Shown here piece after piece: positions 2,962-45,541 of a stretch of DNA of 64,000 nt; position 1 is the first letter of the stretch, and every line of letters begins with the position of its first letter. The stretch covers positions 62,001-126,000 of the forward strand of contig JADFMN010000003.1 of NCBI GenBank assembly GCA_022563855.1. Reading direction: 5' to 3'. The notes beneath the pieces were generated by a model. The model was not told where the DNA came from, searched no databases, and saw nothing but the letters and a program-made list of their open reading frames with translations. The translations under genes and the position numbers were made by a program. This DNA is from Armatimonadota bacterium (GTDB lineage: Bacteria > Armatimonadota > Fimbriimonadia > Fimbriimonadales > Fimbriimonadaceae).

Positions 2962-4119
2962 GTGATTCTAGCGGTGATAGGCGCCGCGGTAGGTCTCTGG
3001 GCAAGCCTGGAGTACATGCCGTACGCGTTGGACTACCTGTATCAGAACGTTGAAATCCAGTCGTACGGCTCAAGCGAGATGGCGGGTGATGAAACGGTGG
3101 GCACGTCTCCGTACCCGTTTACGGATCGTCCCGCCGCTCAAATAGGCTTGGGATTGCTCGGCCTGCTGATTGGTGGGGCGTGCGGCGCCGCCTTAGCCGA
3201 TGCCGCCACTTTTGTCGGCGTCTGGTGGCGGCGGATGGCGATCGGCAACAAGGTGTCGATATTCGTCGGCCTCATACTCGGCATCATCGGATCGCTGCCT
3301 TTCCTTTCGGCGATCGAAGGGCTGGAGGGCGCGCTGAGAGCACAGGCGACGGTTGGCGTCGTGCTACTGTTCAGCGCCGCCGCAATTCTCGCTCTGCACG
3401 CGATGCGCGACGTCCTTCCATGGCAGAAGGAGTCGGTTCGTCGCCGGAATTCGGGCATCAAGATACTGGACACGAACGTGATCATCGACGGGCGGATTCA
3501 CGACGTCGTGAACGCCGGATTCTTAGAAGGAGAGATTTACGTGCCGAAGTTCGTGCTGGATGAACTTCAGCACATCGCAGATAGTGCCGATTCGCTGCGC
3601 CGTCAACGAGGTCGTCGCGGCCTGGAAATCCTTCTCTTGATGCAGGAGAGCCACAAGCTGGAGATCGGAACGCATGACGCCAGAGTCTCTGCAGACGGAG
3701 ACGTCGATTCGCGGCTGGTGCGGATGGCCAAGTACCTCGGCGGCGACCTGGTGAGCAACGACTTCAACCTCAATAAGGTGGCAAGCCTTCAAGACGTCCG
3801 CGTTCTCAACATCAACGACTTGGCTCTAGCGCTTCGACCCAACGTCTTGCCAGGCGAATACCTCGCTGTCATGATCACGAGAGAGGGTAGCCAATCTGGA
3901 CAGGGGGTTGGATATCTGGACGACGGAACCATGGTTGTCGTCGAAGACGCTGAGGGCCGGACGGGAGAAACACTGAACATATGTATTACGCAGGTCATTC
4001 AAACGGAACGTGGGAAGATGATCTTTGGCGCATTTGACGAGCAACCGGAGGATCAGGGGCAGCACGACCATCGATCGACGGAAGATCACCCGGCCAAGAA
4101 GCAGCCGACGGTAGAGTGA
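2962..4119 (+). CDS. membrane-anchored PIN-TRAM domain protein (YacL-like)
   Basis: Predicted membrane-bound RNase-like protein of the YacL family (385 aa). About four hydrophobic segments fill residues 1-150. A PIN domain starts near residue 168 (LDTNVIIDGRI, with later acidic residues in DVDSRLV and SNDFNLNK). A C-terminal TRAM domain follows (about 290-355), which would bind nucleic acid. The GTG start is the first possible one after an in-frame stop at 2926. The stop overlaps the ispDF start (GTGA), so the two are probably co-transcribed. This resembles the yacL-ispD-ispF order of Firmicutes. The RNA target is unknown. Confidence 0.88.
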   Translation: MILAVIGAAVGLWASLEYMPYALDYLYQNVEIQSYGSSEMAGDETVGTSPYPFTDRPAAQIGLGLLGLLIGGACGAALADAATFVGVWWRRMAIGNKVSIFVGLILGIIGSLPFLSAIEGLEGALRAQATVGVVLLFSAAAILALHAMRDVLPWQKESVRRRNSGIKILDTNVIIDGRIHDVVNAGFLEGEIYVPKFVLDELQHIADSADSLRRQRGRRGLEILLLMQESHKLEIGTHDARVSADGDVDSRLVRMAKYLGGDLVSNDFNLNKVASLQDVRVLNINDLALALRPNVLPGEYLAVMITREGSQSGQGVGYLDDGTMVVVEDAEGRTGETLNICITQVIQTERGKMIFGAFDEQPEDQGQHDHRSTEDHPAKKQPTVE

Positions 4120-5237
4120 GGATCGTCGCGTTTGTTCTAGCGGCCGGCGAGTCTCGGCGCTTTGGTCGCAACAAGATGAGGCTCGACGTTGACGGCCAGC
4201 CGGCGTGGCTCAGGTCTTTCCTCGCATTCGACCGGCACCCCGAAGTTCACAGCACGGGTCTTGTCGTTTCTCGCGATCTGCACGACGAAGTCAAGCGCGC
4301 AGCGCCCAGCGCTGCTTTTGTCGTGCTGGGCGGAGAATCCCGTGCTGAGTCGGCGCGTGCCGGGCTCGCCGCCCTCGACGAGTCATGCGACGTCGTCCTG
4401 ATTCACGATGGAGCACGACCGTATGTGACGCCTGGGGTGATATCGCGCGTAATCCAAGGCGTGATCGACCACGGTGCCGCGTACCCGTGCATACCGGTGA
4501 CGGACACTGTTAGGCTCACGACCAGCGGCGGCCTGCAATCGATCGACCGGGATCAGCTTCATTTTGCGCAGTCTCCGCAGGGCGCAAGGCGAGAGCTGTT
4601 CGAACGTGCGTATTCCAACGGCGACGATGAGTACACGGATGACATCGCGGCAGTGCTGGCGATCGGCGAAGCCGCCATGCCCGTTGAGGGCGAGGTCTCG
4701 AACCTCAAAATCACCTATCCTGGAGACGTTCAGCAGATGAAAGCGCGACGAGAGACGAGGACCGGATTCGGGTACGACATTCACGCGTTTTCGTCCGACC
4801 CGGACCGCGATCTGTGGTTGGGCGGGGTTCGATTCGGGTCTGAGGAGCGCGGGCTAATGGGCCACTCAGACGCCGATGCAGTGCTGCACGCGGTGGTCGA
4901 TGCGCTGCTAGGCGCAGCAGGTCTGGGCGACATCGGCAAGGCTTATCCAGACACCGCGCAGGAGTGGAAGGACGCCCCCTCGTCGCTTTTTCTCCGGGGT
5001 TCCGCGCAGAGGGTGATCGAAATGGGCTGGAGGATCTCCAATATCGACGTCACCGTTATCGCAGAGATGCCTAAAATCGGACCCAGGCGTGACGAAATGC
5101 GACGGACCATCGCTGAGCTTTGCGGGATCGAAACGGAGCGGGTAAACGTCAAGGCGACGACCAACGAGAAGCTCGGCCCGATCGGTCACGCCGAAGGCAT
5201 AGCTGCCATGGCCGTCGTGACCCTAGACAGTTCGTAG
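4116..5237 (+). CDS. ispDF: bifunctional IspD/IspF isoprenoid enzyme
   Basis: Fusion of two enzymes of the MEP isoprenoid pathway (373 aa). Residues 1 to about 210 are IspD (2-C-methyl-erythritol-4-phosphate cytidylyltransferase), with the N-terminal nucleotide loop AAGESRRFGRNK and VLIHDGARPYV. Residues about 214-373 are IspF (2,4-cyclodiphosphate synthase), with GFGYDIHAF, GLMGHSDADAVLH and ATTNEKLGPIG. These keep the zinc-binding Asp and His residues. IspE, which acts between the two reactions, is not in the window. The GTG start overlaps the upstream stop by four bases. It converges on the comF-like gene with only seven bases between stops. Confidence 0.95.
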   Translation: MRIVAFVLAAGESRRFGRNKMRLDVDGQPAWLRSFLAFDRHPEVHSTGLVVSRDLHDEVKRAAPSAAFVVLGGESRAESARAGLAALDESCDVVLIHDGARPYVTPGVISRVIQGVIDHGAAYPCIPVTDTVRLTTSGGLQSIDRDQLHFAQSPQGARRELFERAYSNGDDEYTDDIAAVLAIGEAAMPVEGEVSNLKITYPGDVQQMKARRETRTGFGYDIHAFSSDPDRDLWLGGVRFGSEERGLMGHSDADAVLHAVVDALLGAAGLGDIGKAYPDTAQEWKDAPSSLFLRGSAQRVIEMGWRISNIDVTVIAEMPKIGPRRDEMRRTIAELCGIETERVNVKATTNEKLGPIGHAEGIAAMAVVTLDSS

Positions 5238-5244
5238 GCTAGCG

Positions 5245-5913
5245 CTAGGGCGCCCGCTCCTCGACCTCGCCACAAAACGTGACGGCGAGAACGGACGCCG
5301 CTCCGCGCTGCCTTAGAGCCGCCCCACAAGCGAGCAGCGTCCCGCCGGTAGTCGTGACGTCGTCCACCAGGAGGATCTGTTTGCCTGCGACGTCGGGGCT
5401 GGCCTCGAACGCGCCGATCAGATTCGTGAGCCTGGCAGCCCGGTCAAGCCCGACCTGCGGCGGGGTTGCCCGGATTCGAGCAAGTCGGGAGTGCTGCAAG
5501 ACCACTTCGGGGAACGCCTCGCAAAGCAGTTCTGCCTGGTTGAACCCCCGTAAGCTCTTGCGCGACGCGTGGATCGGCACGGCTACCACGTGGTCGAAGT
5601 CCGGCAGGCCGAGCGACGGCAGTGCATCAAAGAGCAGCTGCGCCATCGGCGCGGCCAGAGCGGTCGATCTGTTGTACTTGAGTTGCTTGACAGCCTGCGC
5701 AGCTCTGCCTTCGAACTCGTAGACGCTGGCAATAGCCCTTACCGCGCTCGTGTCGTGGAACGTCTGAGTCCTTTCTTCAAGCGGCTGCAGTTCGTCTAGA
5801 CACTCTTGGCAGATGGCAGGATTGCCGATGCGCTTGCACAGTTCGCACCGGTCCGGGTAAAGCCATCTCAGTGGCGCTTCGAATACCCTTCTCAGCCTTT
5901 CCACAGAGATCAT
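5245..5913 (-). CDS. ComF family phosphoribosyltransferase-like protein
   Basis: ComFC/GntX-type protein (222 aa). An N-terminal cysteine cluster (CELCKRIGNPAICQECL, about residues 22-38) looks like a zinc ribbon. The C-terminal PRTase fold carries the PRPP loop ILLVDDVTTTGGTL near residue 182. In naturally competent bacteria ComF helps single-stranded DNA enter the cytoplasm; elsewhere the role is unclear. No other competence gene is next to it. ATG start at 5913. Family assignment is firm, role is inferred. Confidence 0.85.
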   Translation of the reverse strand: MISVERLRRVFEAPLRWLYPDRCELCKRIGNPAICQECLDELQPLEERTQTFHDTSAVRAIASVYEFEGRAAQAVKQLKYNRSTALAAPMAQLLFDALPSLGLPDFDHVVAVPIHASRKSLRGFNQAELLCEAFPEVVLQHSRLARIRATPPQVGLDRAARLTNLIGAFEASPDVAGKQILLVDDVTTTGGTLLACGAALRQRGAASVLAVTFCGEVEERAP

Positions 5914-9113: not shown

Positions 9114-9635
9114 ATGTATAGGACGCTCCGGAAAGTTCACAAGTGGATCGGCGTGTTCGCCTGCCTGTTTCTGATGACAATGGCGTCGACCGGATTCCTG
9201 CTGGCGATCAAGAAGCGTGCGGAGTGGCTCCAGCCCGCAGTGATCGTTGGAGGGCAGATCGACGGGCCTCAACAGGTCATCGGCATGGACGATGTGTTCG
9301 AGGCCGTGCGCGGGGAAGAGGGGTTTGAGTCGTTCGAGGACATCAACCGGATCGACTACCGCCCCGACGACAACGTCTTTAAGGTGCGCAGCGCCGACAG
9401 GCTCCACGAGGTCCAGGTCGACGGCGCGACAGGCGAAGTGCTGAAGAAAGCGCCGCGCAACGACCAGCTCACAGAGAACATCCACGACATGTCGTTCTTC
9501 AGCGATGCGATGCACGATTGGTGGCTGCCTGTCGTCGCCGTCGGGCTGTTCACGCTCGGCCTGACGGGCGTGGTCTTGTTTTTCACGCCGTACGTCCGCC
9601 GCTGGAAGTACCGGCGTAGCCTGCGGGAGGAGTAG
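9114..9635 (+). CDS. PepSY-associated transmembrane protein
   Basis: Membrane protein of the PepSY_TM type (173 aa). One transmembrane helix lies at residues 8-32 after the typical RTLRKVHKWIGVFACLF start. A periplasmic PepSY-like region follows (about 55-118, ending VQVDGATGEVLKKAP), then a second helix (about 138-160). In other bacteria such proteins sit near iron uptake or reductase systems, but none is visible here. It follows the M20 gene closely and is probably in the same transcript. Function unknown. Confidence 0.75.
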   Translation: MYRTLRKVHKWIGVFACLFLMTMASTGFLLAIKKRAEWLQPAVIVGGQIDGPQQVIGMDDVFEAVRGEEGFESFEDINRIDYRPDDNVFKVRSADRLHEVQVDGATGEVLKKAPRNDQLTENIHDMSFFSDAMHDWWLPVVAVGLFTLGLTGVVLFFTPYVRRWKYRRSLREE

Positions 9636-30294: not shown

Positions 30295-30363
30295 TCCGTG
30301 GCAAATAGGCGCGGTTGCACACCGCCGTAGTCGTGTGCGACAAGAGAAATTCCAGAAAAGGGC

Positions 30364-30392
30364 TTGACAAAACAGCGCGACATCACTATCTC
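30364..30392 (+). promoter_or_regulatory. copied RHS promoter (TTGACA-17-TATCTC)
   Basis: TTGACA at 30364-30369 and TATCTC at 30387-30392 with a 17-base spacer. The position and flanking bases match the promoter of the intact RHS gene (40942-40970). Confidence 0.6.
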
Positions 30393-30422
30393 CTTTTTGA
30401 CGGCCGGAATTCGGCTGTGGAG

Positions 30423-30590
30423 ATGAAGATGAAATTGAACGGTAGGGTTGTGAAGAGAGCAAACGCATTTGCGCTCCGCGTGTCTTGCGTCGGACTGTCG
30501 GTGCTGATGGCGTACAGCACGGGCGCCAGCGGATTCAACTACCTCGCTCGGCTGACGCCTTCTTCGGTACCTGCTGGCTCGGTACCGTAG
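30423..30590 (+). pseudogene. 5' fragment of an RHS gene (signal peptide only)
   Basis: Codes for the signal-peptide region of the intact RHS protein almost unchanged (KLNGRVVKRANAFALR, then LSVLMAYSTGASGFNYLARL), with its promoter. Identity stops abruptly at about 30555. Only about ten unrelated codons follow before a stop at 30590. It is thus the detached front end of an RHS gene; a short exported peptide could still be made. Confidence 0.8.
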
Positions 30591-34127: not shown

Positions 34128-34160
34128 GATTCGCGCGAAGGAACACACAAGCTCAGACCA

Positions 34161-34292
34161 CTAAGTCTTGACGAATGAGTTGGCCGGTGTCACGCCCTTC
34201 CAGGTGAGGACTGTCGCGGACATGTTTTTGACAGCGGTCGTATAGGTCGCAGTCGGAGCGTTTCGAAGTTGGAACTTTACGGTGCCGTCCGA
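34161..34292 (-). pseudogene. 3' fragment of the subtilisin gene
   Basis: The minus strand codes for a 43-residue copy of the C-terminus of the subtilisin at 38984-40729. SDGTVKFQLRNAPTATYTT here equals SDGTVTFQLRNAPAATYTT there, and both end in a Thr codon and TAG. It abuts the RHS 3' half without a gap. Confidence 0.85.
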
Positions 34293-35739
34293 GACGGTCG
34301 CATTCGAGCCCCGTTCGCGGCCTCTTTCGGTGATCGTCTGGGATTCTTTGGGCGTTGAGATCGAGCGGAAGGAGTACGTCTGGGACGTCGCCTCGCGGGT
34401 GACCGACGCGCTAGAGGGCGGGGTGTGGTCCGCGTACTCGTTCGACGCCATCGACCAGCTGATCGCCGAGGCGAAGCCGTCTGTCAGCTACTCCGCTTCG
34501 TACTCGTTCGACGCGAACGGAAACCGTCTTTCCCGCACGGTCAACGGCGTTACCGAGACGTACGCCTACGACGACGCGGACAAGCTGCTCTCGATCACCG
34601 GCGGGTTCAACCCGCGCACGTACTCCTACGACCTTGCTGGCCGCACGACCGCTATCTCCGGGGTCGGCGGCACGACGCAGTTCGACTACGACTACGACGG
34701 CCAGGTGACGCAGATCACGTACCCGAGCTTGGCGACGGATTCCTTCACGTACAACGGTCTCGGCGCGCGGGCGACTTCATCGGGCGTCAGCGGTTCTCGC
34801 ACTTTCAAGCGGGGCGGGCTAAGCGTCACCTCGCCTGTTCTTTCGGACGGGGTCGCGCAGTACACGCCGGGGATCTCGCGCCGCGAGAACGAGGTCTCGA
34901 CGTTCCAGCACTCGGGTCTGAAGAACGCCTCCGCGCAGTCTTCCGCTTCCGGGGCGGTCACCGCCTCGCGCGTCTACGACGCCTACGGCAACCTCGTGTC
35001 CTCGACCGGCACCTGGCAAGGGCCGTTCGGCTACGGCGGCGCCTTCGGCTACCAGGAGGAGGCCAACGGCCTCAAGCTCCTCGGCCACCGCTACTACGAC
35101 CCCGACACCGGGCGATTTCTGACCCCCGATCCGATTGGAAGTGGACGGAATTGGTACGCCTACATAGACAACAGTCCTGTCAGCGGATTTGACGCGTCAG
35201 GGTTGGTTCGAATCGATATTGCAGCTGGTGCTGCAGCGACAGCGGAGGAGGCGTCCCTTTGGCGCGCGGTGTACACGCTGATTCCAAACTGGCTCAGATG
35301 GCTCGCCGGTGCAGGACCGGGTGTTGGCGTCACAGCAAGCCAGATTGGACGACATGCTGTACGATCTGGCAGGCTTCCGCAACTCGCGCGTCAAGCTGGA
35401 GAGACGGCCAGAGGATACGGCTTCCGCTTTCACCAGTTAGGGAAGCGGTTCCAGACGGACACGCTGAGGCTTGATAAGGTGATCGAAGGTACGAGAATGA
35501 GACCGGACATTCTGGATAAAACAACAAAGACGATTATCGAGATAAAGCCGTCCAACGCCCGGCAGATCGGCGTGGGCACTAATCAGTTGCAAAGATACCT
35601 TGAGGCAGCACAGCGCGCGTATGGAGGCGATTGGAAGGGGCAGGTATGGACCTACGATATGCCGCCTCCCGTCCAGTTCAACATTCCCAGAACCATCGGC
35701 GGTTTCGGATCGTTTGCCAACAGTGGCTTCTTCAATTAG
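34282..35739 (+). CDS. 5'-truncated RHS protein with nuclease-like C-terminal tip
   Basis: RHS/YD-repeat 3' half (up to 485 codons). Residues about 9-285 are nearly identical to the end of the intact RHS core at 41004-45152, including RYYDPDTGRFLTPDPIGSGR. The tip after the core differs completely. It contains RPDILDKTTKTIIEIKP, an Asp...ExK arrangement followed by Gln residues (TNQLQRYLEAAQ), which suggests a PD-(D/E)xK nuclease toxin (inference). There is no signal peptide. The 5' edge is fused to the subtilisin scrap, so it may be a silent tip cassette. Confidence 0.75.
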   Translation: MPSETVAFEPRSRPLSVIVWDSLGVEIERKEYVWDVASRVTDALEGGVWSAYSFDAIDQLIAEAKPSVSYSASYSFDANGNRLSRTVNGVTETYAYDDADKLLSITGGFNPRTYSYDLAGRTTAISGVGGTTQFDYDYDGQVTQITYPSLATDSFTYNGLGARATSSGVSGSRTFKRGGLSVTSPVLSDGVAQYTPGISRRENEVSTFQHSGLKNASAQSSASGAVTASRVYDAYGNLVSSTGTWQGPFGYGGAFGYQEEANGLKLLGHRYYDPDTGRFLTPDPIGSGRNWYAYIDNSPVSGFDASGLVRIDIAAGAAATAEEASLWRAVYTLIPNWLRWLAGAGPGVGVTASQIGRHAVRSGRLPQLARQAGETARGYGFRFHQLGKRFQTDTLRLDKVIEGTRMRPDILDKTTKTIIEIKPSNARQIGVGTNQLQRYLEAAQRAYGGDWKGQVWTYDMPPPVQFNIPRTIGGFGSFANSGFFN

Positions 35740-35757: not shown

Positions 35758-36279
35758 ATGGACTCAGACAATGTCAACGAGGCCCGAGAGGCGATCGAGA
35801 GCACGGTCAAGCGGTACTTCGTCGGAGTGCGGGGGTTCAGGATCCGCAGGCGGCACTACTTCAAGAATCTTGACGGTGTTCAACACGCCGCCTTTCTCGC
35901 AAGAGGTTCGTACGGCCCGGACTACGATATGGACTACCAAGCGACCTTGCTGTGTGGCGAAGACAGTGATCTCAAGTCATACGCAAGAGTGTCAGATATC
36001 TTCGGCGGCATCGGTTGGCTGAGCGGGCGGAAACCAGGAGTACTTGAGATAATGGACGCGGCTATCGAAATGCCAGTGCTAGCTCGAATCAACCGTATCC
36101 AGACCTTATTGGAAGAGGATGCGGAAAAGTGGTATAGCCGCGTCAGTACGCCCGAAGACCTCCGGAAAACGATCAGAGAGGCTTGGCACGACAAACTCAA
36201 GAACTACATTCCGATGGCAAAGGGAGCGCTGAAAGTCGGCATCGACCCGTGGCCAGAGGGCAAGCCCGACTACATCTGA
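35758..36279 (+). CDS. candidate immunity protein of the nuclease-like tip (paralogue 1)
   Basis: A 173-aa soluble protein starting 18 bases after the RHS-tip stop, the usual place for an immunity gene. It is highly similar to the gene at 37411-37932, sharing STVKRYFVGVRG, YFKNL, LQTLL-like RIQTLLEEDAEKWYSRVSTP, and KGALKVGIDPWPE. The middle (about 45-65) differs, as expected for a toxin-contact surface. No known immunity family was recognised. Assignment rests on position and duplication. Confidence 0.65.
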   Translation: MDSDNVNEAREAIESTVKRYFVGVRGFRIRRRHYFKNLDGVQHAAFLARGSYGPDYDMDYQATLLCGEDSDLKSYARVSDIFGGIGWLSGRKPGVLEIMDAAIEMPVLARINRIQTLLEEDAEKWYSRVSTPEDLRKTIREAWHDKLKNYIPMAKGALKVGIDPWPEGKPDYI

Positions 36280-36419
36280 CTACAAAATGACTACCGCGCC
36301 TCGTGACCGTTCATTATTCGCATGGCCGATCGCATTCCCCGTGTTTATGTCGGAATGTTCTTGGGCGGTTCGGTAGGCGTAATGTATATGATAGCACTCG
36401 AGTAATACTGTAGGCGAGA

Positions 36420-37298
36420 ATGAATGTCATCCATAGGACTTGGAACCGATTCTGGGGATTGATCACTGAGAAGCGCGACATGAGCGCCCTTGACGCGGCG
36501 ATTCTGGAAGCCTTCGTCCGTCGGTTACCGCCGAGCCTCGGCGACATCGCGCAGGATCAAATTTCTGCGATCACGCGAGTTGCACATAAACCAGCGGACC
36601 AGTGGATCGGTCTAGTCCTAGGTCGGCGTTCTGCAAGATCGGAGCTGCCGATGTTTCCAAATCGCTATCCATCTAGCACCGCGGCGTTTGTTTTTGGTGC
36701 CTCTGGTGGTAACGATTACCGAGCCAATATTGTCGTAAATTGCGGGCTACTTGACTCGATCGCACTGTCGGAGCCGCCGGGAGATTTGCCGACCGATGTC
36801 TCAGCGGAGAACTTCGAAGTCGTGTTGGTGAACGATCTTGATACTCCAGGCGAGAACCCCGAGGCAATACCCATCGATCAGCTCGAAAGCGCGCAGGCTA
36901 GATCGTTCTCGGAATCTCACCATGCGACAGAGTTTTTTCCACCGAAAAGCCAAGAGATCGTTGATGCATACCAGAGATTTCTCGGGTCGCCATTGCCTGC
37001 GGATTTCTTGCAGCTCGTCGAACACGTCGATGGCTTCAAGACTGAGCATTGGGATTTCCTCGGTGTATCCGGCCGGATCATGGTTTGGCCAACACGTGAG
37101 TGCATCAAGTCTATTGCGGAGGACGACGAGTGCTTGTTCGGCATCTGTTTCGTCGCAGACGACAGAGAGGGACGTTACTATCTGTTAAGCGAGGTAGACG
37201 CGGACCTACAGCCGCTGGAAACCGACCTGCGCGGAGCGCTTGTAGAGCTGGAATCTCATTTGAAGGATTACCATGCCGATATTGCTGGCGAAGAGTAG
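36420..37298 (+). CDS. SUKH/SMI1-KNR4-like protein, candidate immunity protein
   Basis: A 292-aa soluble protein. The C-terminal half (about 170-285) has the SUKH pattern: VDAYQRFLGSPLPADFLQLV, then HVDGFKTEHWDFLGV and a late beta-rich stretch. SUKH proteins are common immunity proteins of polymorphic nuclease toxins. The N-terminal 150 residues resemble nothing I know. It sits between the two candidate immunity paralogues. No toxin of its own lies directly upstream, so it may be a leftover immunity gene. Confidence 0.65.
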   Translation: MNVIHRTWNRFWGLITEKRDMSALDAAILEAFVRRLPPSLGDIAQDQISAITRVAHKPADQWIGLVLGRRSARSELPMFPNRYPSSTAAFVFGASGGNDYRANIVVNCGLLDSIALSEPPGDLPTDVSAENFEVVLVNDLDTPGENPEAIPIDQLESAQARSFSESHHATEFFPPKSQEIVDAYQRFLGSPLPADFLQLVEHVDGFKTEHWDFLGVSGRIMVWPTRECIKSIAEDDECLFGICFVADDREGRYYLLSEVDADLQPLETDLRGALVELESHLKDYHADIAGEE

Positions 37299-37320
37299 TT
37301 GGGACAGGACGCAGCTCAGC

Positions 37321-37392
37321 CCCGATCCTCTTCCTATTACCGGCAGCATCGGCGGCTTCCGCTCTTTCGCGACCAGCGGCTACATGAAATAG
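37321..37392 (+). pseudogene. 3' scrap of an RHS toxin tip
   Basis: An open stretch ends IGGFRSFATSGYMK-stop, matching IGGFGSFANSGFFN-stop at the end of the nuclease-tip gene (35739). It is followed by a paralogue of the same candidate immunity gene. This is the tail of a second, deleted toxin cassette. Confidence 0.75.
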
Positions 37393-37410
37393 CCGGAGTA
37401 TCATCAAGGC

Positions 37411-37932
37411 GTGGAGTCGGACAAGGTCATCGAAGCCCGAGAGGGGATAGAGAGCACGGTCAAGCGGTATTTCGTCGGGGTACGGGGCTTGCGCGTGCGC
37501 AGGCGGCACTACTTCAAGAACCTAGAGGGTGTGCAGCACTCAGCGACCTTGAGTATCAGTTCCTGGTCGCCGTACTTTCGAATAATGTACTGTGCGACCC
37601 TTCTTTGCGACGAAGACAGAGACCTCAAGTCGTACGCAAGGGTGCCGGACATCGAGGGCGATCTCGGCTGGTTGAGTGGGCGGAAAAGAGGAACACTTGA
37701 GATAATGGACGCGGCTGTCGAAATGCCGGTGCTAGTTCGAATCAACAAGATTCAGACTCTATTGGAGGAGGATGCGGAAAAGTGGTACAGCCGCGTCAGC
37801 ACACCCGAAGATCTCAGGGCGACCATTACGGAGTCCTGGGACGGCAGCGTAAAGAACTATGTGCCGTTTGCTAAGGGCGCGCTGAAAGTCGGCATCGACC
37901 CGTGGCCAGAGGAGAAGCCGGAAGGCATCTGA
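37411..37932 (+). CDS. candidate immunity protein (paralogue 2), orphan
   Basis: A 173-aa protein closely related to the one at 35758-36279. The two ends are nearly identical and a divergent block lies around residues 43-62 and 80-90. It begins with GTG 18 bases after the stop of a toxin 3' scrap, the same spacing as in the first cassette. With its toxin gone it is an orphan immunity gene, perhaps protecting against relatives that keep the lost tip. Confidence 0.65.
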   Translation: MESDKVIEAREGIESTVKRYFVGVRGLRVRRRHYFKNLEGVQHSATLSISSWSPYFRIMYCATLLCDEDRDLKSYARVPDIEGDLGWLSGRKRGTLEIMDAAVEMPVLVRINKIQTLLEEDAEKWYSRVSTPEDLRATITESWDGSVKNYVPFAKGALKVGIDPWPEEKPEGI

Positions 37933-37984: not shown

Positions 37985-38079
37985 ATTTAACCGTTCGCCC
38001 ATTGCGCTGAACCGCCCGGTAAACTGACAGCCCTGTTCGCCCAGAAGTCGCGCAGGGAGGTTGGCGTCGAAAAACGGCC

Positions 38080-38442
38080 ATGGCACTCGAAGAAAGGAAT
38101 GAAAGGACGCTGAGTCCACGCGTGGTTATCGTCGCGTTGTTGCTCGTGGCGATCATCGTTTACTCGCTCGTGGTCATCTGGGGCAAGTTGCCCGATGGAC
38201 GAAGTACGTTAGCAGACCGAACTACCTTGTTGGCTGTAGTGAGCTCTTATTACAAGCAGACCGGAGAGGTTCCCGATGATGTGGACGACTTGATGGAACA
38301 GTATCGGAAACTGGACTACAAATTGCCCCGCTAGGAGATCGAAAACCTGGACATACAGCTAATCGAAGATGAGAGGAAGATCAGAATCACGTACGTGATG
38401 GATGAGCGAAGCTTCGACGTTACAATCAATGCGAGGCGATGA
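38080..38442 (+). pseudogene. amber-interrupted copy of the caspase-tip partner gene
   Basis: Aligns over its full length with the gene at 45149-45481 (YYKQTGEVPDDVDDL here, YYKQTGEVPNNLDDL there). A single TAC-to-TAG change at 38332-38334 stops it. After the stop the frame stays intact for 35 codons (RKIRITYVMDERSFDVTI) to the matching TGA at 38440. Just upstream the tail of the RHS frame is also conserved (PWHSKKGMKGR, stop at 38111-38113), so the duplicated block included the toxin 3' end. Recent inactivation is likely. Confidence 0.85.
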
Positions 38443-38478
38443 AACCCGCGACGGGTCGAGCATCGTCCAAAGCAATTG

Positions 38479-38913
38479 ATGACAAACTTCAAACACGTCG
38501 CATCGTTGGTCCTGGTGGCCGTTGCTGGATGCAATCTGGCTGTACTGCTCCAAGACCGGGAGAGCCTCGAACAGCAGCGGTCGCTCGTAGAGCACCAGGT
38601 CAATTCGCTGTACGGCGAGGGGTATGACGGGGCGGACTTGCGGGCTCTGGATGCCGCTTGGGAAGTGTTTACCCAGACGAAAGGGCTGAAGGGTTCAGAG
38701 CTTGACAAACAGAACTACTGGTTCGAGATAGAGGCCGGGCGCGCGCATCGGATCGTCGAGATATATCCTAAGCCCAGACCGGAAAACGAACCCGAGCCAC
38801 CCGAACTGCCGATGGCTTCGGACTACTGGCTGTGGGGTACCGAAGGGGTGTTCTGGGTCAACAAGGCCACGTTCGAGGTCGATGGAAAGTTCGTGTATCC
38901 GACTGACCGGTGA
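38479..38913 (+). CDS. lipoprotein of unknown function
   Basis: A 144-aa protein with a signal sequence ending in the lipobox-like VAVAGC (cysteine about residue 18). A coiled-coil-like stretch (QDRESLEQQRSLVEHQVNSL) follows, then a Pro-rich middle (KPRPENEPEPPELP) and a C-terminal block WGTEGVFWVNKATFEVDGKF. ATG 38479 follows a TTG one codon earlier. It lies downstream of the amber-interrupted gene and ends at a strong bidirectional terminator facing the subtilisin gene. No family recognised. Confidence 0.65.
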   Translation: MTNFKHVASLVLVAVAGCNLAVLLQDRESLEQQRSLVEHQVNSLYGEGYDGADLRALDAAWEVFTQTKGLKGSELDKQNYWFEIEAGRAHRIVEIYPKPRPENEPEPPELPMASDYWLWGTEGVFWVNKATFEVDGKFVYPTDR

Positions 38914-38927
38914 GCGTAAGAAGCGAC

Positions 38928-38962
38928 TTTGTGGCGAAGCCACTAACCGGCTTCGCCACAAA
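38928..38962. terminator. bidirectional intrinsic terminator
   Basis: TTTGTGGCGAAGCC-ACTAACC-GGCTTCGCCACAAA, a perfect 14-pair stem with a seven-base loop, lies between the convergent lipoprotein and subtilisin genes. The A/T ends give a U-tract in both directions. Confidence 0.85.
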
Positions 38963-38983
38963 TGAACACACAAGCACAGACGA

Positions 38984-40729
38984 CTACGTCTTCTCGTACT
39001 CGTTCGGCGGTGTCACGCTGTCCCAGGTCAGACCCGAAGCAGACACGCTGTCGACGACGGTCGTATAGGTCGCAGCCGGAGCGTTCCGCAGTTGGAACGT
39101 GACCGTGCCATCCGAACCGGTCGTCGCGGTTCCGACCCACGAGCCGCCATCGTTGTTGGACAGGGTGATCGTGACCGTAGCGCCGGCCACGACTGCGCCG
39201 AGGTTGTCGAGCAGCGCGATCGTGACGCGCAGGTTCTTAGTGCCGCCCCTGCCGCCGGAAGTCGAGTAAGTGATCGCCGAGACGGAGACTTCGGTCGCCT
39301 CTTCTGGCGGGCTGCCGACGGTGATGGTGACCGACTTGCTGCCAGTCTTGTTTCCGGAATCCGTCGCGCTCGCGGTGATCGTGTAAACGCCGTCGGGCAA
39401 AGTCGCCTGGAAGCTGCCGCCGGTGCCGATCTCGCCGAGGCCGGTCGCGGTCCAAGTCATCGAACTGGTGAGCGTTCCGTCTTCGGTGTCGGTCGCCGAA
39501 CCGGCAAAGCTAATGCTCGCGCCTGATGCGAAGGTCGCACCGTCAGAGGGGCTAGTGATCGTGACGACCGGGACGTCGTTGGGAGGGCCGATGTCTGCCG
39601 CCTCGTCGGCGTCAACGATGCCGTAGCCGAACAGCGGGTCCCAGCCCGCATCGCCCAGGTCGTCAGCGGTCATGATGAGCTGCGCGCGAACGTCGGTGTT
39701 CAGCGTCATGCCAGCGGCGATGACGAGCGCCGCCGCGCCAGCGACGTGCGGGGACGCCATGGAAGTACCGCTGAAATTAACGTATCCGCCGCCGAGTTTC
39801 GTCGATTTGATGTTGGACCCCGGCGCCGCTATCTCGACGTCCGGTCCGGTGCTGGAAAAGCTTGATCTTGTGTCGTCCGAAGTCGTCGATGCGACGGCGA
39901 TAACGGACGCATACCGCGCCGGGTAGCCGACCTTGTCGCCCTTGCCCTTGCGGTTGCCGCTGTTGCCGGCGGCAGCGACGTGAATGATGCCTGCCGCGTA
40001 CGAGTTGTCGAACGCGGCCTTGACGGCGACGCCAGGATCGGAGCTGCTGCCGTAGCTGTTGTTCGTCACTTGAATGCCGTTGTCGACGCACCATTGCAGC
40101 GCCGCGATGATGTCGCTCCATGATCCGCTGCCGCTGGAGTTCAGAACCTTGACGCCGTATAGGCTCGCGAGCGGCGCCATGCCGACCACGCCAACGCCGT
40201 CATCTTCCGCCGCGACCGTGCCGGCCACGTGCGTGCCGTGCTTGTAGTCGTCCATGGGGTCGTTGTCGTTGTTGACAAAGTCGTATCCGCCCATGAAGTT
40301 TCCGTCGAGGTCCGGATGCGTGTAGTCGATTCCGGAGTCGATAATGGCGACTTTCACGCCCAAACCTTTGTTTCCGCCGTCGTGTACGAACCCAGCGCCG
40401 GTTCGCTTGACGCCCCACGTGTTGTCCAGTTCGGCGTCAATAGCGTAGACGATGCCGTCAAGGTCGACGGCAATGACGTTCGGGTTCCTTTCGAGCCCGT
40501 CGATCGCCGCAGACGGGATGGTCGCCGCGATCGCGCGAACCAGGCGATAGGTGTACTTGATCGTGCCACCTGCGCCGCGTACCAGTGCCTGCTCGGCCGG
40601 GCCGGGTTGATGAGAGAACGAGATGATGACGGGGACTCGATCGCCGCCTTGGGCGACAGCAGTCAGCGGCGCACCCAACGTGAGCGCAGCAGCGATGATT
40701 GAAAAGAGAAGTAATCGGCGGCAATTCAT
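38984..40729 (-). CDS. secreted subtilisin-like serine protease (S8) with Ig-like C-terminus
   Basis: Exported protease of 581 aa. A signal peptide covers residues 1-26. An I9-type propeptide follows (about 30-100, ending NPNVIAVDLDGIVYA). The catalytic triad is Asp in AIIDSGIDYTHPDL, His in HGTHVAGTVAAE and Ser in FSGTSMASPHVAGAAAL. Residues about 380-470 form an Ig-like or PKD-like domain, and about 485-581 a second Big-type domain (VTITLSNNDGGSW). It is divergent from the intact RHS gene, 274 bases apart, and may process it (inference). Its 3' end is duplicated at 34161-34292. TATAAT on the minus strand near 40797-40802 is its likely promoter. Confidence 0.93.
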   Translation of the reverse strand: MNCRRLLLFSIIAAALTLGAPLTAVAQGGDRVPVIISFSHQPGPAEQALVRGAGGTIKYTYRLVRAIAATIPSAAIDGLERNPNVIAVDLDGIVYAIDAELDNTWGVKRTGAGFVHDGGNKGLGVKVAIIDSGIDYTHPDLDGNFMGGYDFVNNDNDPMDDYKHGTHVAGTVAAEDDGVGVVGMAPLASLYGVKVLNSSGSGSWSDIIAALQWCVDNGIQVTNNSYGSSSDPGVAVKAAFDNSYAAGIIHVAAAGNSGNRKGKGDKVGYPARYASVIAVASTTSDDTRSSFSSTGPDVEIAAPGSNIKSTKLGGGYVNFSGTSMASPHVAGAAALVIAAGMTLNTDVRAQLIMTADDLGDAGWDPLFGYGIVDADEAADIGPPNDVPVVTITSPSDGATFASGASISFAGSATDTEDGTLTSSMTWTATGLGEIGTGGSFQATLPDGVYTITASATDSGNKTGSKSVTITVGSPPEEATEVSVSAITYSTSGGRGGTKNLRVTIALLDNLGAVVAGATVTITLSNNDGGSWVGTATTGSDGTVTFQLRNAPAATYTTVVDSVSASGLTWDSVTPPNEYEKT

Positions 40730-40941
40730 AGCGGTACACCAGGGTTAAACAAGATATCGGCCAATCAAGCGGCCAAACCTAGTTTGCTTTACGCCATTAT
40801 ACGACGATTCGACTCACGGGATTGTTCTACGATTGGCGATACTGGCAATTTTCGCAGGTTGCCCAGCCGCTATTCTTACTTGGAGCGGACGTTTGCCGGG
40901 CGATCAGAACGATGCTCCGACGCCGAGCGGCGAAAAGGGGC

Positions 40942-40970
40942 TTGACAGATCCGCACGAATTGTGTATATG
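40942..40970 (+). promoter_or_regulatory. RHS gene promoter (TTGACA-17-TATATG)
   Basis: TTGACA at 40942-40947 and TATATG at 40965-40970, spacer 17, 33 bases before ATG 41004. The same arrangement is copied at 30364-30392. Confidence 0.7.
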
Positions 40971-41003
40971 CTTTATGACGGTCGTAATTCGGCTGCGGAG
41001 AAA

Positions 41004-44000
41004 ATGATGAAACTGAACGGTAGGGTGGTAAGGAGAGCGAACGCGCTTGCGCTCCGAGCGTCTTGCGTCGGCCTGTCGGTGCTGATGGCGTACAGCACCG
41101 GTGCCAGCGGGTTCAACTACCTCGCTCGGCTGACGTACGAAGAGATCCTCGAGGCCGCCGCGCAGCGTCGCCCTCGACCCGCGCCGTACTCGACCAGCCC
41201 GATCATCATGCCTGCGAGAAAGGGCTCCGTCGGTCGTGATCCGGTTTTGCGCGGCGGAATGTGGAGCGCGGAGGACCTTGCCGTGCTAGCCCGAGCAGAA
41301 CAGCAGCGGGCGGTTCGATTCCTCGAAAGGCACCCTGAGCGGCTGCAAGCGAGCATCAACCCGACTCCAGTGCCGCTACTCGGTGGACCCGGCGGCCCTT
41401 CCGGCTCGCCCGTGCCTGGCGAGGGGTTCGGCGGAGCAGCTTCGGGGCGCAGCTTCGCAACCTACCACGAAGTGCCGATAGGTCTGCCGCCGCCGGGCTG
41501 GGACGACGACGGGGGCGGAGACACGGACGACGGCGGCCCACCGGGCTCGCTCGGCGGGCCAGGTGGCACAGGCGGTATTCCCGGCGATCTGCAGAACAAC
41601 CTCAACACGAACACCGGGAACTTCTTGACGATCCTGGGGCTCACCGGCTGGAACGCGCCGGGGGATTCGTTCGTGGACTTCACGATCGTCCACAACTCGA
41701 TGATGACCACGGAGATCGGCGCGATCACCGACATCGGCCACTCGTGGAGCCACACGTACAGCAAGGAGATCATGTTCTACGGGAACGGTGGGGGCCCGGG
41801 CATCGACTGGGCGTTTCTGATCTGGTCCGACGGCCAGCGGCTGAAGTTTGTGGAGTCCGGCAACCCCGGCGAGTTCGTCTCGACCCAAGGGTACGCGGCC
41901 AAGCTGTACAAGTTCATAGGCGGGTTCCGCGTCGAGACGAAAGACGGCTGGAAGTACCACTTCGACGACGACGGTTTCTTGACGGGCGAAGAGGACGCGT
42001 GGGGAAACCTCGTGACGATATGGAGGACGTTCGGCGGCGATATCATCCAGGTCTCGGACGAGGTCGGTCGCAGCCTGAACTTCACTTACAACGGCTGGGG
42101 CTACATCACCAGCATCACCGCGCCGGACGGCAAGATCATCTGGTTCAACCACGACCCCTCGGGCAACTTGCTGAAGGTCACTTTGTGGCCGCTCGATATG
42201 CAGTCGTACTCCTTCGACTTCACCTACGACGGCAACCACAACATCCTGACCGAGACGACGCCCGGAGGCAAGACTTGGACTTTCGCCTACGACACGAGCG
42301 ACCGGGTGATCTCGTCGCAGAACCCGCTGCTGAAGACTTGGACGATCGTCTACACGCTCGACTCGGCGATCATGTACGATCCGCTGGGCAACTCGGTCTG
42401 GCACAACTACTTCGAAGGGCGGCTCACCAGCATCAGGGACGAGGCTGGGTTCTACGCTTACTACTGGTCCGTTCCAAGCAACAAGCGCCTTCTAGCGCAT
42501 TATAAGGACCGCAATGGCGGGGACTGGTACTGGACGTACGACTCGAACGGCAACGTCCTGACCGAGAAAGACCCGTTGTTGCGAGTGTGGTCGTACACAT
42601 ACGATTCGCGGAATCTGCTGAAAACTGTAGAAGACCCAGCCGGGAAGATTTGGGATCTCGACTACGGCAGTTTCCCCGAAACTCCGGCTCCGATAAGGGT
42701 CATCGACCCGATGGGGCGCGGCGCGGAGACGAGCATCGCGTACGACACGGACGGCAACGTGATCGCGGTCATCCGCGATCTGCCCGCCGGACCAGACGTC
42801 ACCCTTTCGGCGTTTTGGTACGACGTGTATAAGAGCAACGTTATCAAGGCGCACACTTACGGCCCGCGCGAGAGCGAATCGACCGCGACCTACGACATCA
42901 TGGGCCGCGTTCTTACCGCGACCGATGCTGCGGGTGAGACCATTTCCATGCTGTACGACGACTGGGGCCGACCAATTGGAATGCTTCACGGAGACCTGAC
43001 CGGAGTGTCTGTCGTTTACGACCTGGACAGCCAGGTATTAAGTGGGACCGATGAATTGGACCGCACGGTGAACATGTTCTATGACGCGCTAGGACGGCTT
43101 GCGTCAATGGACAATGCAAAGAGCGAAACAACGAGTTTTGCATACGACGATGCGAATCGCCTAACTGACATCACCAACGCGCGTGGCAAGACCCGAACGT
43201 ACACCTACACTGTGCGCAGCGAGGTGTATACGTTGCTGCTCCCCGACGGCGCGCTCGAATCGTGGAGCTACGACGGGGTGGGCAACACGACTTCGTACAC
43301 CAACCCGCTCAACCAGACCATCACTTACGATTACAGCACTGCGCTAGAGCAGATATTGGTCGACTATCCGACCGGCGTCGACACGGCGTTCGCCTACGAC
43401 ACATTAGGTCGCATGACCTCGATGACAGACGCAACCGGCGTTTCGTCCTGGTCGTTCAACGACGCGAGCGATGTCACCCAGGTCGTCACTCCGCAAGGCA
43501 CTATTAACTATGCGTACGACACATGGGGTCGCACGACTTCGGTCACCGAAGTCGGCGTCGGCACGACAACATACAATTGGGACTTCGCCTACGATGTGCC
43601 CACCTCAATGACCAACGCGTTCAACGAGACGACATCTGTTCAATTCGATGGTTTTGGCCGTGTTTACCGCACCAATCTGCCCAACGGAACGTACGAGATT
43701 GTGACATTTGACGCACGTTCGAGACCTTCGTCTGTGGTTGTGCGAGATTCGCTTGATGTTGAGATAGACCGGAAGGAGTACGTCTGGGACGCTGCTAACC
43801 GGGCAACCAATGCGCTTGAGGGGGGTGTGTGGTCAAACTACACCTACGACGTTATCGACCAACTCATCGCCGAGGCGAAGCCGTCTATTAGCTACTCGGC
43901 GTCGTACTCCTTCGACGCGAACGGCAACCGGACTTCGCGCACGGTCAACGGCGTTACCGAGACGTACGCCTACGACGACGCGGACAAGCTGCTCTCGATC

Positions 44001-45152
44001 ACCGGCGGATTCAACCCGCGCACGTACTCCTACGACCTCGCCGGTCGCACGACCGCGATCACGGGGGCAGGCGGCACGACGCAAATCGCTTACGACTACG
44101 AAGGGCGTGTGACGCAAATCACGTACCCTAGCTTAGCGTCTGATTCGTACACCTATAACGGCGTTGGAGCACGGGCATCTGCGATTGGTGTAAGCGGATC
44201 GCGAACGTTCAAACGCAACGGCCTCGGTGTGGTCTCTTCTGTTCTATCTGATGGTGTTGCGCAGTATACGCCTGGCGTTTCACGCCGCGAGAACGGCGTC
44301 TCGACATTCCAACATTCGGGACTGAAGAACACTTCCGCGCAGTCGTCTGCGACAGGCGCAATTTCTGCTTCCCGAGTGTACGATGCCTACGGTAATACGG
44401 TCTCCTCAACCGGCACTTGGAAAGGCCCATTCGGTTACGGCGGTCCGTTCGGCTACCAGGAGGAGGCCAACGGCCTAAAGCTCCTCGGCCACCGCTACTA
44501 CGACCCAGACACCGGTCGTTTCCTTACAAGAGACCCGATTGGCAGCGGACGGAATTGGTACGCCTACGCAGGCAACAGCCCTATCGTTCGCGCTGATGCC
44601 AGCGGTCTTGAGTACGTCGTCGTAGTTAGAGGAAGCCAAGTCGACGGCGAGGACATCAACGAAGACACGGACGCCATCATCAGAGACATTCAGGACAAAT
44701 ACGGAAAGGAAAACGTAGTTGTTGTCAGTACTGCGGAAGATGCGTACAAGGAGCTTGCGGAAGAGGATGCTGGCGTTCTGATTATTATTGGCCACAATTC
44801 GGTTTATGAAGGGGGTGGTGAATGGGACCCAGACATTCACGCGTCGTTCTATGTGGAAGACGGAAGTAGCATTGACCCGCACGAAATCTCTCGCCGTAGA
44901 GGAGGAAGAAGACTAGATCGAATTGAGCTGGTGCTCTGTGACTCTCTCGCAAATCCAGGTCAGGCAGCGGCCTGGGGTAGATTGAGTGATGGAAATCTGT
45001 ACGGATCGTACGGGCCTCTAGCAATTAACTGGTACGCAAAAGGACTTAATCGATTGACAAAATACGACCCTAGTCGCGTGAGAGTTGAACCAAATTGGTG
45101 GAACAGTATCTGGCCATGGCACGGGAAGAAAGGAAAAAAGGGACGCGGATGA
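41004..45152 (+). CDS. RHS/YD-repeat polymorphic toxin with caspase-like tip
   Basis: A 1382-aa secreted RHS protein. The signal peptide is in the first 40 residues, and a Gly/Pro-rich linker follows (GGPGGPSGSPVPGEGFGG and GGGDTDDGGPPG). YD repeats run from about 220 to 1180, ending at the RHS core signature RYYDPDTGRFLTRDPIGSGR. The unique tip of about 185 residues has LIIIGHNS (His1264) and LVLCDSLAN (Cys1312). This His-Cys dyad with strand-like surroundings resembles caspase/CHAT peptidases (inference). The frame opens at 40833, but the promoter lies inside that stretch, so ATG 41004 is preferred. Confidence 0.88.
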   Translation: MMKLNGRVVRRANALALRASCVGLSVLMAYSTGASGFNYLARLTYEEILEAAAQRRPRPAPYSTSPIIMPARKGSVGRDPVLRGGMWSAEDLAVLARAEQQRAVRFLERHPERLQASINPTPVPLLGGPGGPSGSPVPGEGFGGAASGRSFATYHEVPIGLPPPGWDDDGGGDTDDGGPPGSLGGPGGTGGIPGDLQNNLNTNTGNFLTILGLTGWNAPGDSFVDFTIVHNSMMTTEIGAITDIGHSWSHTYSKEIMFYGNGGGPGIDWAFLIWSDGQRLKFVESGNPGEFVSTQGYAAKLYKFIGGFRVETKDGWKYHFDDDGFLTGEEDAWGNLVTIWRTFGGDIIQVSDEVGRSLNFTYNGWGYITSITAPDGKIIWFNHDPSGNLLKVTLWPLDMQSYSFDFTYDGNHNILTETTPGGKTWTFAYDTSDRVISSQNPLLKTWTIVYTLDSAIMYDPLGNSVWHNYFEGRLTSIRDEAGFYAYYWSVPSNKRLLAHYKDRNGGDWYWTYDSNGNVLTEKDPLLRVWSYTYDSRNLLKTVEDPAGKIWDLDYGSFPETPAPIRVIDPMGRGAETSIAYDTDGNVIAVIRDLPAGPDVTLSAFWYDVYKSNVIKAHTYGPRESESTATYDIMGRVLTATDAAGETISMLYDDWGRPIGMLHGDLTGVSVVYDLDSQVLSGTDELDRTVNMFYDALGRLASMDNAKSETTSFAYDDANRLTDITNARGKTRTYTYTVRSEVYTLLLPDGALESWSYDGVGNTTSYTNPLNQTITYDYSTALEQILVDYPTGVDTAFAYDTLGRMTSMTDATGVSSWSFNDASDVTQVVTPQGTINYAYDTWGRTTSVTEVGVGTTTYNWDFAYDVPTSMTNAFNETTSVQFDGFGRVYRTNLPNGTYEIVTFDARSRPSSVVVRDSLDVEIDRKEYVWDAANRATNALEGGVWSNYTYDVIDQLIAEAKPSISYSASYSFDANGNRTSRTVNGVTETYAYDDADKLLSITGGFNPRTYSYDLAGRTTAITGAGGTTQIAYDYEGRVTQITYPSLASDSYTYNGVGARASAIGVSGSRTFKRNGLGVVSSVLSDGVAQYTPGVSRRENGVSTFQHSGLKNTSAQSSATGAISASRVYDAYGNTVSSTGTWKGPFGYGGPFGYQEEANGLKLLGHRYYDPDTGRFLTRDPIGSGRNWYAYAGNSPIVRADASGLEYVVVVRGSQVDGEDINEDTDAIIRDIQDKYGKENVVVVSTAEDAYKELAEEDAGVLIIIGHNSVYEGGGEWDPDIHASFYVEDGSSIDPHEISRRRGGRRLDRIELVLCDSLANPGQAAAWGRLSDGNLYGSYGPLAINWYAKGLNRLTKYDPSRVRVEPNWWNSIWPWHGKKGKKGRG

Positions 45153-45481
45153 GTTTTCGCACAGTTGTAGTCGGGCTGTCGTTGCTCGCAGTCATTACCT
45201 ACTCATTTGTAGTTATAGTAGGCAAGTTGCCGAACGGGCGCAATACAATGACCGATAGAACGACCCTACTAGTTGTTGTAAAGTCTTACTACAAGCAGAC
45301 GGGGGAGGTGCCGAATAATCTGGACGACTTGAAGAACCAGTATCAGAAACTGGGTCATGATCTGCCCCGTTACGAGATCGAAAACCTGTACATACAGCTA
45401 ATCGAAGATGAGAGGAAGATCAGAATCAAGTACGTGATGAACGAGAGAAGCTTCGACGTTACGATCGATGCGAGGCGCTGA
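45149..45481 (+). CDS. small membrane protein, candidate immunity protein of the caspase-like tip
   Basis: A 110-aa protein with one N-terminal transmembrane helix (VVVGLSLLAVITYSFVVIV) and a soluble part with YYKQTGEVPNNLDDL, a motif style also seen in pseudopilin-like proteins. ATG 45149 overlaps the RHS stop (ATGA) and has an AAGGGA site; ATG 45116 is an alternative, also conserved in the amber-interrupted copy at 38080. Coupling to the toxin tip and duplication with it point to immunity (inference). Confidence 0.65.
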   Translation: MSFRTVVVGLSLLAVITYSFVVIVGKLPNGRNTMTDRTTLLVVVKSYYKQTGEVPNNLDDLKNQYQKLGHDLPRYEIENLYIQLIEDERKIRIKYVMNERSFDVTIDARR

Positions 45482-45482
45482 T

Positions 45483-45541
45483 TCTCGACGTTCCAGCACT
45501 CGCGTCTGAAGAACACTTCCGCGCAGTACTCGGCTTCTGGC
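45483..45541 (+). pseudogene. 59-bp RHS core scrap
   Basis: About 55 bases resemble the RHS core stretch coding STFQHSGLKNTSAQ (as at 44305 and 34897). It stands alone between the small membrane gene and the murJ stop, marking the right border of the shuffled region. Confidence 0.75.

Follow-up and report, generated by a model that had tools for sequence, protein, structure and literature searches.

Background

Caspase-type domains have been counted among the modules of polymorphic toxins since 2012, when Zhang et al. listed Tox-Caspase (PMC3482391), a domain with a His and a Cys that mostly serves as a releasing peptidase and in some proteins stands at the C-terminus, where it is a likely toxin. 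Its carriers include RHS proteins, and the immunity protein listed for it is Imm36, which has a BH3703-like fold (PMC3482391). In a limited search of the open-licence literature, the term Tox-Caspase was found only in that paper, and no tested caspase-type interbacterial toxin with an immunity protein was found. Two other described systems bear on the locus presented here: Csx29, a CHAT protein of CRISPR type III-E whose H615 and C658 are 43 residues apart (PMC10028731), and Cpe1-Cpi1, a tested papain-like cysteine peptidase toxin with its immunity protein, also found on RHS carriers (PMC12136450).

We analysed a stretch of 64,000 nucleotides from an Armatimonadota bacterium (hereafter the window; coordinates are positions in it and the features described lie on the + strand), in which an RHS gene ends in a tip of 179 residues and overlaps a small gene. 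We propose that the tip is probably a caspase-like (clan CD) cysteine peptidase toxin of an RHS system and the overlapping gene its membrane-anchored immunity protein. That the tip and its partner form a toxin-immunity pair is, in itself, very likely.

Comparison with described systems

As in Tox-Caspase, a His/Cys domain, here predicted to be caspase-like, comes last in a polymorphic toxin, RHS proteins are among the carriers and a probable immunity gene is adjacent, and it is plausible that the window system works like this predicted class. It differs in that the tip has no detectable similarity to the catalogued CHAT/C14 models, and in its partner, a single-helix membrane protein where Tox-Caspase has Imm36. 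With CHAT domains (PF12770) the tip shares a His and a Cys at the ends of successive strands (predicted ones in the tip), 43 to about 52 residues apart, and its 'LCDS' recalls the 'ACDS' of some CHAT domains of the phylum; however, it has 'HN' where CHAT mostly has 'HG', is 179 aa long against 289 model positions, and sits on an RHS protein whereas CHAT sits on TPR proteins. The likeness to the caspases and metacaspases of Peptidase_C14 (PF00656) lies in the predicted fold and the best Foldseek matches. Cpe1-Cpi1 likewise pairs a cysteine-peptidase toxin used between bacteria with the product of a neighbouring immunity gene, but has a papain-like fold and T6SS/CDI delivery, whereas the window has a predicted caspase-like fold, no T6SS sheath gene and a membrane-anchored partner.

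The original prediction had considered a protease tip paired with a membrane-bound immunity protein to be uncommon. This overstated the novelty, since caspase-like C-terminal toxins, RHS proteins included, were already in the 2012 list (PMC3482391). A caspase-type tip was thus already a known idea. What is new is a sequence-orphan tip family, the membrane anchor of its partner and 'HN' in place of 'HG'.

The RHS carrier gene

The RHS gene (41004..45152) encodes 1382 aa from the ATG at 41004, within an open frame that extends over 40833-45152. It comprises 13 YD/RHS repeats (Pfam RHS_repeat, E 1e-53; TIGR01643, E 2.5e-49) and a conserved RHS core end (Rhs_assc_core) at 44379..44609, '...RFLTRDPIGSGRNWYAYAGNSPIVRADASGLE' (TIGR03696, E 1.5e-17; residues 1183-1259 of protein P0001, E 4.6e-16), the repeats and core end expected of an RHS polymorphic toxin. 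The tip starts at 44613, directly after the core end as defined by TIGR03696. At the other end of the protein, a basic start followed by a weakly hydrophobic stretch (41004..41111, mean hydropathy 1.36) gives the N-terminus a weak resemblance to a Sec signal, as judged from hydropathy only. VipB (type VI sheath) is absent from the genome of the window, which is 96% complete, and type VI delivery is therefore unlikely; the PAAR domain that would mark a type VI secreted RHS effector was also absent from the Pfam scan.

Sequence features of the tip

The tip (44613..45149, 179 aa), predicted from its relatives, AlphaFold2 and Foldseek to be a caspase-like toxin domain, is the C-terminal-most domain of the RHS protein, followed only by a short Trp/Lys-rich tail. 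Its two motifs, 'VLIIIGHN' and 'IELVLCDSL', carry the candidate catalytic His (44793..44795, tip residue 61) at the end of predicted strand 3 and the candidate catalytic Cys (44937..44939, tip residue 109) at the end of predicted strand 4. Counting from the ATG at 41004 reproduces the numbering of the original prediction, which had pointed out His1264 and Cys1312, 48 residues apart and each after a hydrophobic run. The usual motif of clan CD is 'HG', where the tip has 'HN'. A His and a Cys that each follow a hydrophobic run, 39-86 residues apart, arose in 64 of 200,000 shuffles of the tip; this pattern was chosen after the tip and the families were known, so that the test is moderate evidence only and, for this reason, the relatives described below are given more weight.

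Searches of Pfam, NCBIfam, PHROGs and PADLOC gave no family match for the tip, PDB sequences contained no relative, and plasmids, phages and IMG/VR yielded no match. Neither CHAT (PF12770) nor Peptidase_C14 (PF00656) matched it above the Pfam cut-off, and the GHG and Cys motifs of the latter ('[SA]GHG ... D[ASC]C') are not found in it. Weak matches to GRDA, DUF356, NblA and Sec61beta in the family libraries lay far below the cut-offs and were rejected.

Predicted fold

The AlphaFold2 model of the tip, built from a two-row alignment (pLDDT 61, pTM 0.62), has strands at residues 2-7, 35-38, 55-61, 103-110 and 137-143 with helices between them. The resulting order, strand-helix-strand-helix-strand(His)-helix-strand(Cys)-helix-strand, is the caspase strand order, and a His at the end of strand 3 with a Cys at the end of strand 4 is the layout of clan CD. 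With Foldseek, ranks 1-12 in the PDB were all caspases for the window tip (E 0.0024-0.019, probability 0.54-0.98, TM-scores 0.30-0.37), and caspase-domain proteins took ranks 2 and 5 in the viral library. The model of a relative's tip (see below) has an identical order of elements at a lower pLDDT of 56; MALT1 paracaspase occupied its ranks 1 and 2, mixed with CheY-like folds (E 0.2-0.5). For neither model did any Foldseek match reach an E-value < 0.001, and TM-scores were about 0.3-0.4.

Profiles were compared with hhalign, using a two-row tip query against C14, CHAT and, as a control, receiver alignments collected from the same phylum. With this two-row query the tip was not significantly similar to C14 (P 0.76) or to CHAT (P 0.39), and the receiver control came out above both (P 0.014). 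The receiver alignment spans a helix near tip residues 38-57, outside the conserved His and Cys blocks, while the non-significant CHAT alignment places the tip His on His and the tip Cys on Cys. The His-Cys spacing is 48 in the tip, 48-63 in C14 and mostly 44-58 in CHAT; a CHAT example from the phylum, 'VLHIAAHH' + 47 + 'LVVLSACDS', is close in layout to 'VLIIIGHN' + 48 + 'IELVLCDS'.

The caspase fold claimed originally is supported in part: by the predicted alpha/beta fold, by the His and Cys at strand ends and by the rank of the caspases, but not by the profiles, and model confidence is low to middling. Likewise, of the profile search and structure prediction that had been proposed as checks, the libraries name neither CHAT nor C14, while caspases are the best fold matches, at this same level of confidence. 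Given the weak E-values and TM-scores, the model confidence and the non-significant profile comparison, we describe a caspase-like fold of the tip as likely on the strength of the model, but unproven.

Relatives of the tip in the phylum

A search of 291 Armatimonadota genomes recovered relatives of the tip in one other genome (G100), where they occur twice: as the L009/L006 copy (L009 = G100:C53) and as the L005 copy (G100:C50). Each shares about 50% identity with the window tip, and the IGHN and LCDSL blocks are invariant across all three. The L009/L006 copy stands on an RHS core piece and differs in its N-terminal part from the window carrier; in L009 this core piece is short and lies behind a further set of tip and partner. 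The family is found on a different core in L009, as exchange between carriers would have it. An in-frame TGA breaks the L005 copy; no core was identified in front of it, and it was compared piecewise or with the in-frame stop kept. Among the tips, pN is about 0.36 against a saturated pS, so that non-synonymous divergence is well below synonymous divergence.

Matches in G045 (E 0.001) and G238 (E 0.006, in a frame full of stops) were rejected as chance, the blocks being absent in an open frame, as were two matches within the window's own genome (E 0.15-0.26), which had no His/Cys blocks where inspected (L003 left out). The other set in L009 consists of an RHS tip at 3843-5096 (+) of that locus, with a weak match to DUF3750 (E 2.8e-4, below the cut-off), and of a single-helix partner that overlaps it at 5078-5434 (+), a near copy of which lies at 9162-9518.

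The partner gene and its copies

The partner gene, a probable immunity gene, occupies 45149..45481 and starts at the ATG of 'GGATGAGT' at 45149, where 'ATGA' is common to it and the RHS stop. It encodes 110 aa with one N-terminal transmembrane helix: residues 6-24 form a hydrophobic stretch with a mean Kyte-Doolittle value of 2.65, against 0.02 for the next best window. Coordinates and hydropathy confirm the four-base overlap and the 110-aa single-helix membrane protein first reported. The partner had no Pfam match at E <= 1 and no match to an Imm family, and is not Imm36.

A single-helix gene lies directly 3' of the tip at all three loci (window, L005 and L009). The L005 partner begins with a GTG in a four-base overlap with the toxin stop, and the ATG of the L009 partner is two bases past the toxin stop. 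All three proteins have a single helix, at the N-terminus, and share a weakly conserved block, 'R...SY...G..P'. Those of L005 and L009 are 20-27% identical to the window partner (the tips being about 50% identical), a low identity that fits the expectation for specific immunity.

A search with the three-partner profile also revealed a decayed second partner copy at 38076..38442, about 7 kb upstream of the intact one, with 75.7% DNA identity to 45112-45481 and an in-frame TAG at 38332. In front of it stand the final 37-38 bases of a toxin gene copy, and we read the two together as the remains of an older cassette. The two partner copies have a dN/dS of 0.15. Together, the recurrence of the pair and this decayed copy support a toxin-immunity cassette. 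The decayed copy is a mosaic with respect to the gene at 45149, with 66% identity before the TAG (143/216) and 92% after it (102/111; Fisher P 1e-7), a pattern suggestive of gene conversion in the 3' part.

The surrounding degraded RHS region

Directly after the partner lies a 58-bp RHS core remnant (45483..45540), 87.9% identical to 34895-34952 in the core of an upstream RHS piece and partly to 44299-44343. That upstream piece (34282-35739, +) is a displaced RHS core piece with 79% DNA identity to 43690-44585, and it carries a Tox-REase-9 tip (E 3.7e-9), which has a restriction-endonuclease fold; similar core ends thus bear different tips. By analogy with known RHS biology, the remnant after the partner, the decayed cassette and the short core piece of L009 may be interpreted as typical of exchangeable tip cassettes.

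The piece is followed by two copies of a 173-aa gene (35758-36279 and 37411-37932, both +; 75% aa identity, no family match), between which lies a SUKH-1-like gene (36420-37298, +; E 5e-4, below the cut-off); these three genes (35758-37932) probably make up a small polyimmunity locus that serves the Tox-REase-9 tip. An 84% copy of the first part of the RHS gene (40934-41135) lies at 30356-30557 (+), over 10 kb upstream, so that the stretch 30.3-38.4 kb probably represents an RHS locus of older date that has degraded. Immediately 3' of the decayed partner copy, 38476-38913 (+) codes for 145 aa with one hydrophobic stretch, at the N-terminus, and may be another orphan immunity gene. Most of the degraded RHS region lies between the two copies of a 163-bp direct repeat (34138-34300 and 38961-39123, 77%).

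Proposed function

The gene layout, the conservation of the His and the Cys and the recurrence of the pair are direct observations, around which the following scheme can be drawn. The RHS protein would be exported via the Sec pathway, and its core may, by analogy with known RHS biology, enclose the tip and free it by self-cleavage. In a neighbouring bacterial cell, the His61-Cys109 pair would then cleave a protein. The immunity protein would be anchored in the inner membrane, N-terminus inside, and bind the tip through its soluble, periplasmic part. This topology (N-in, C-out) is suggested by the mostly basic N-termini of the partners, the charge difference across the helix of the window partner being small. 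If the soluble part is periplasmic, the tip would act in or pass through the periplasm, a step that depends on the predicted orientation of one helix. More tentatively, HN/LCDSL tips could form a separate family of clan-CD peptidases, so far known from only two genomes of the phylum, whose members kill from the membrane face or the periplasm and are countered by a protein inhibitor anchored in the inner membrane; this extension is conceivable but somewhat doubtful.

The alternative that deserves most attention keeps the RHS toxin but gives its tip another Rossmann-like alpha/beta fold (flavodoxin-like, receiver-like or that of another enzyme), with the His and Cys used for other chemistry or for structure. 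Indeed, the tip is modelled best over residues 1-61, which form a generic beta-alpha-beta-alpha-beta unit, the Foldseek matches include receiver and flavodoxin folds, and the hhalign receiver control outscores the caspase families. Nevertheless, caspases alone fill the first 12 PDB ranks for the window tip, the receiver alignment misses the His and Cys blocks, and these conserved blocks coincide precisely with the two strand ends that clan CD uses; we consider such a fold rather unlikely.

A role as a caspase-like self-processing domain that releases something else, rather than as the toxin, would agree with most caspase-like domains of polymorphic toxins being releasing peptidases (PMC3482391). 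It is highly improbable here, where the tip holds the C-terminal-most position that the same study assigns to toxins, with only the Trp/Lys-rich tail after it, and where a partner gene recurs alongside. Broken RHS and partner copies nearby and the in-frame TGA of the L005 tip might instead point to a dead or ornamental tip in a decaying cassette, next to an unrelated small membrane protein; against this, the window copy is intact over 1382 aa with both candidate residues present, and in tips and partner copies alike non-synonymous divergence is well below synonymous divergence, which makes this reading very unlikely. A caspase-like peptidase toxin with a membrane-anchored immunity protein therefore remains our preferred reading.

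Conclusions

The locus adds a polymorphic toxin to the Armatimonadota, a phylum for which a literature search on RHS toxins returned almost nothing, and only loosely related work. Its membrane-anchored partner raises the question of whether a caspase-like toxin acts outside the cytoplasm. Finally, because the tip is short and self-contained, shows a clear His/Cys pair and has a single gene as its partner, the locus would permit a caspase-type toxin to be tested together with its immunity protein.
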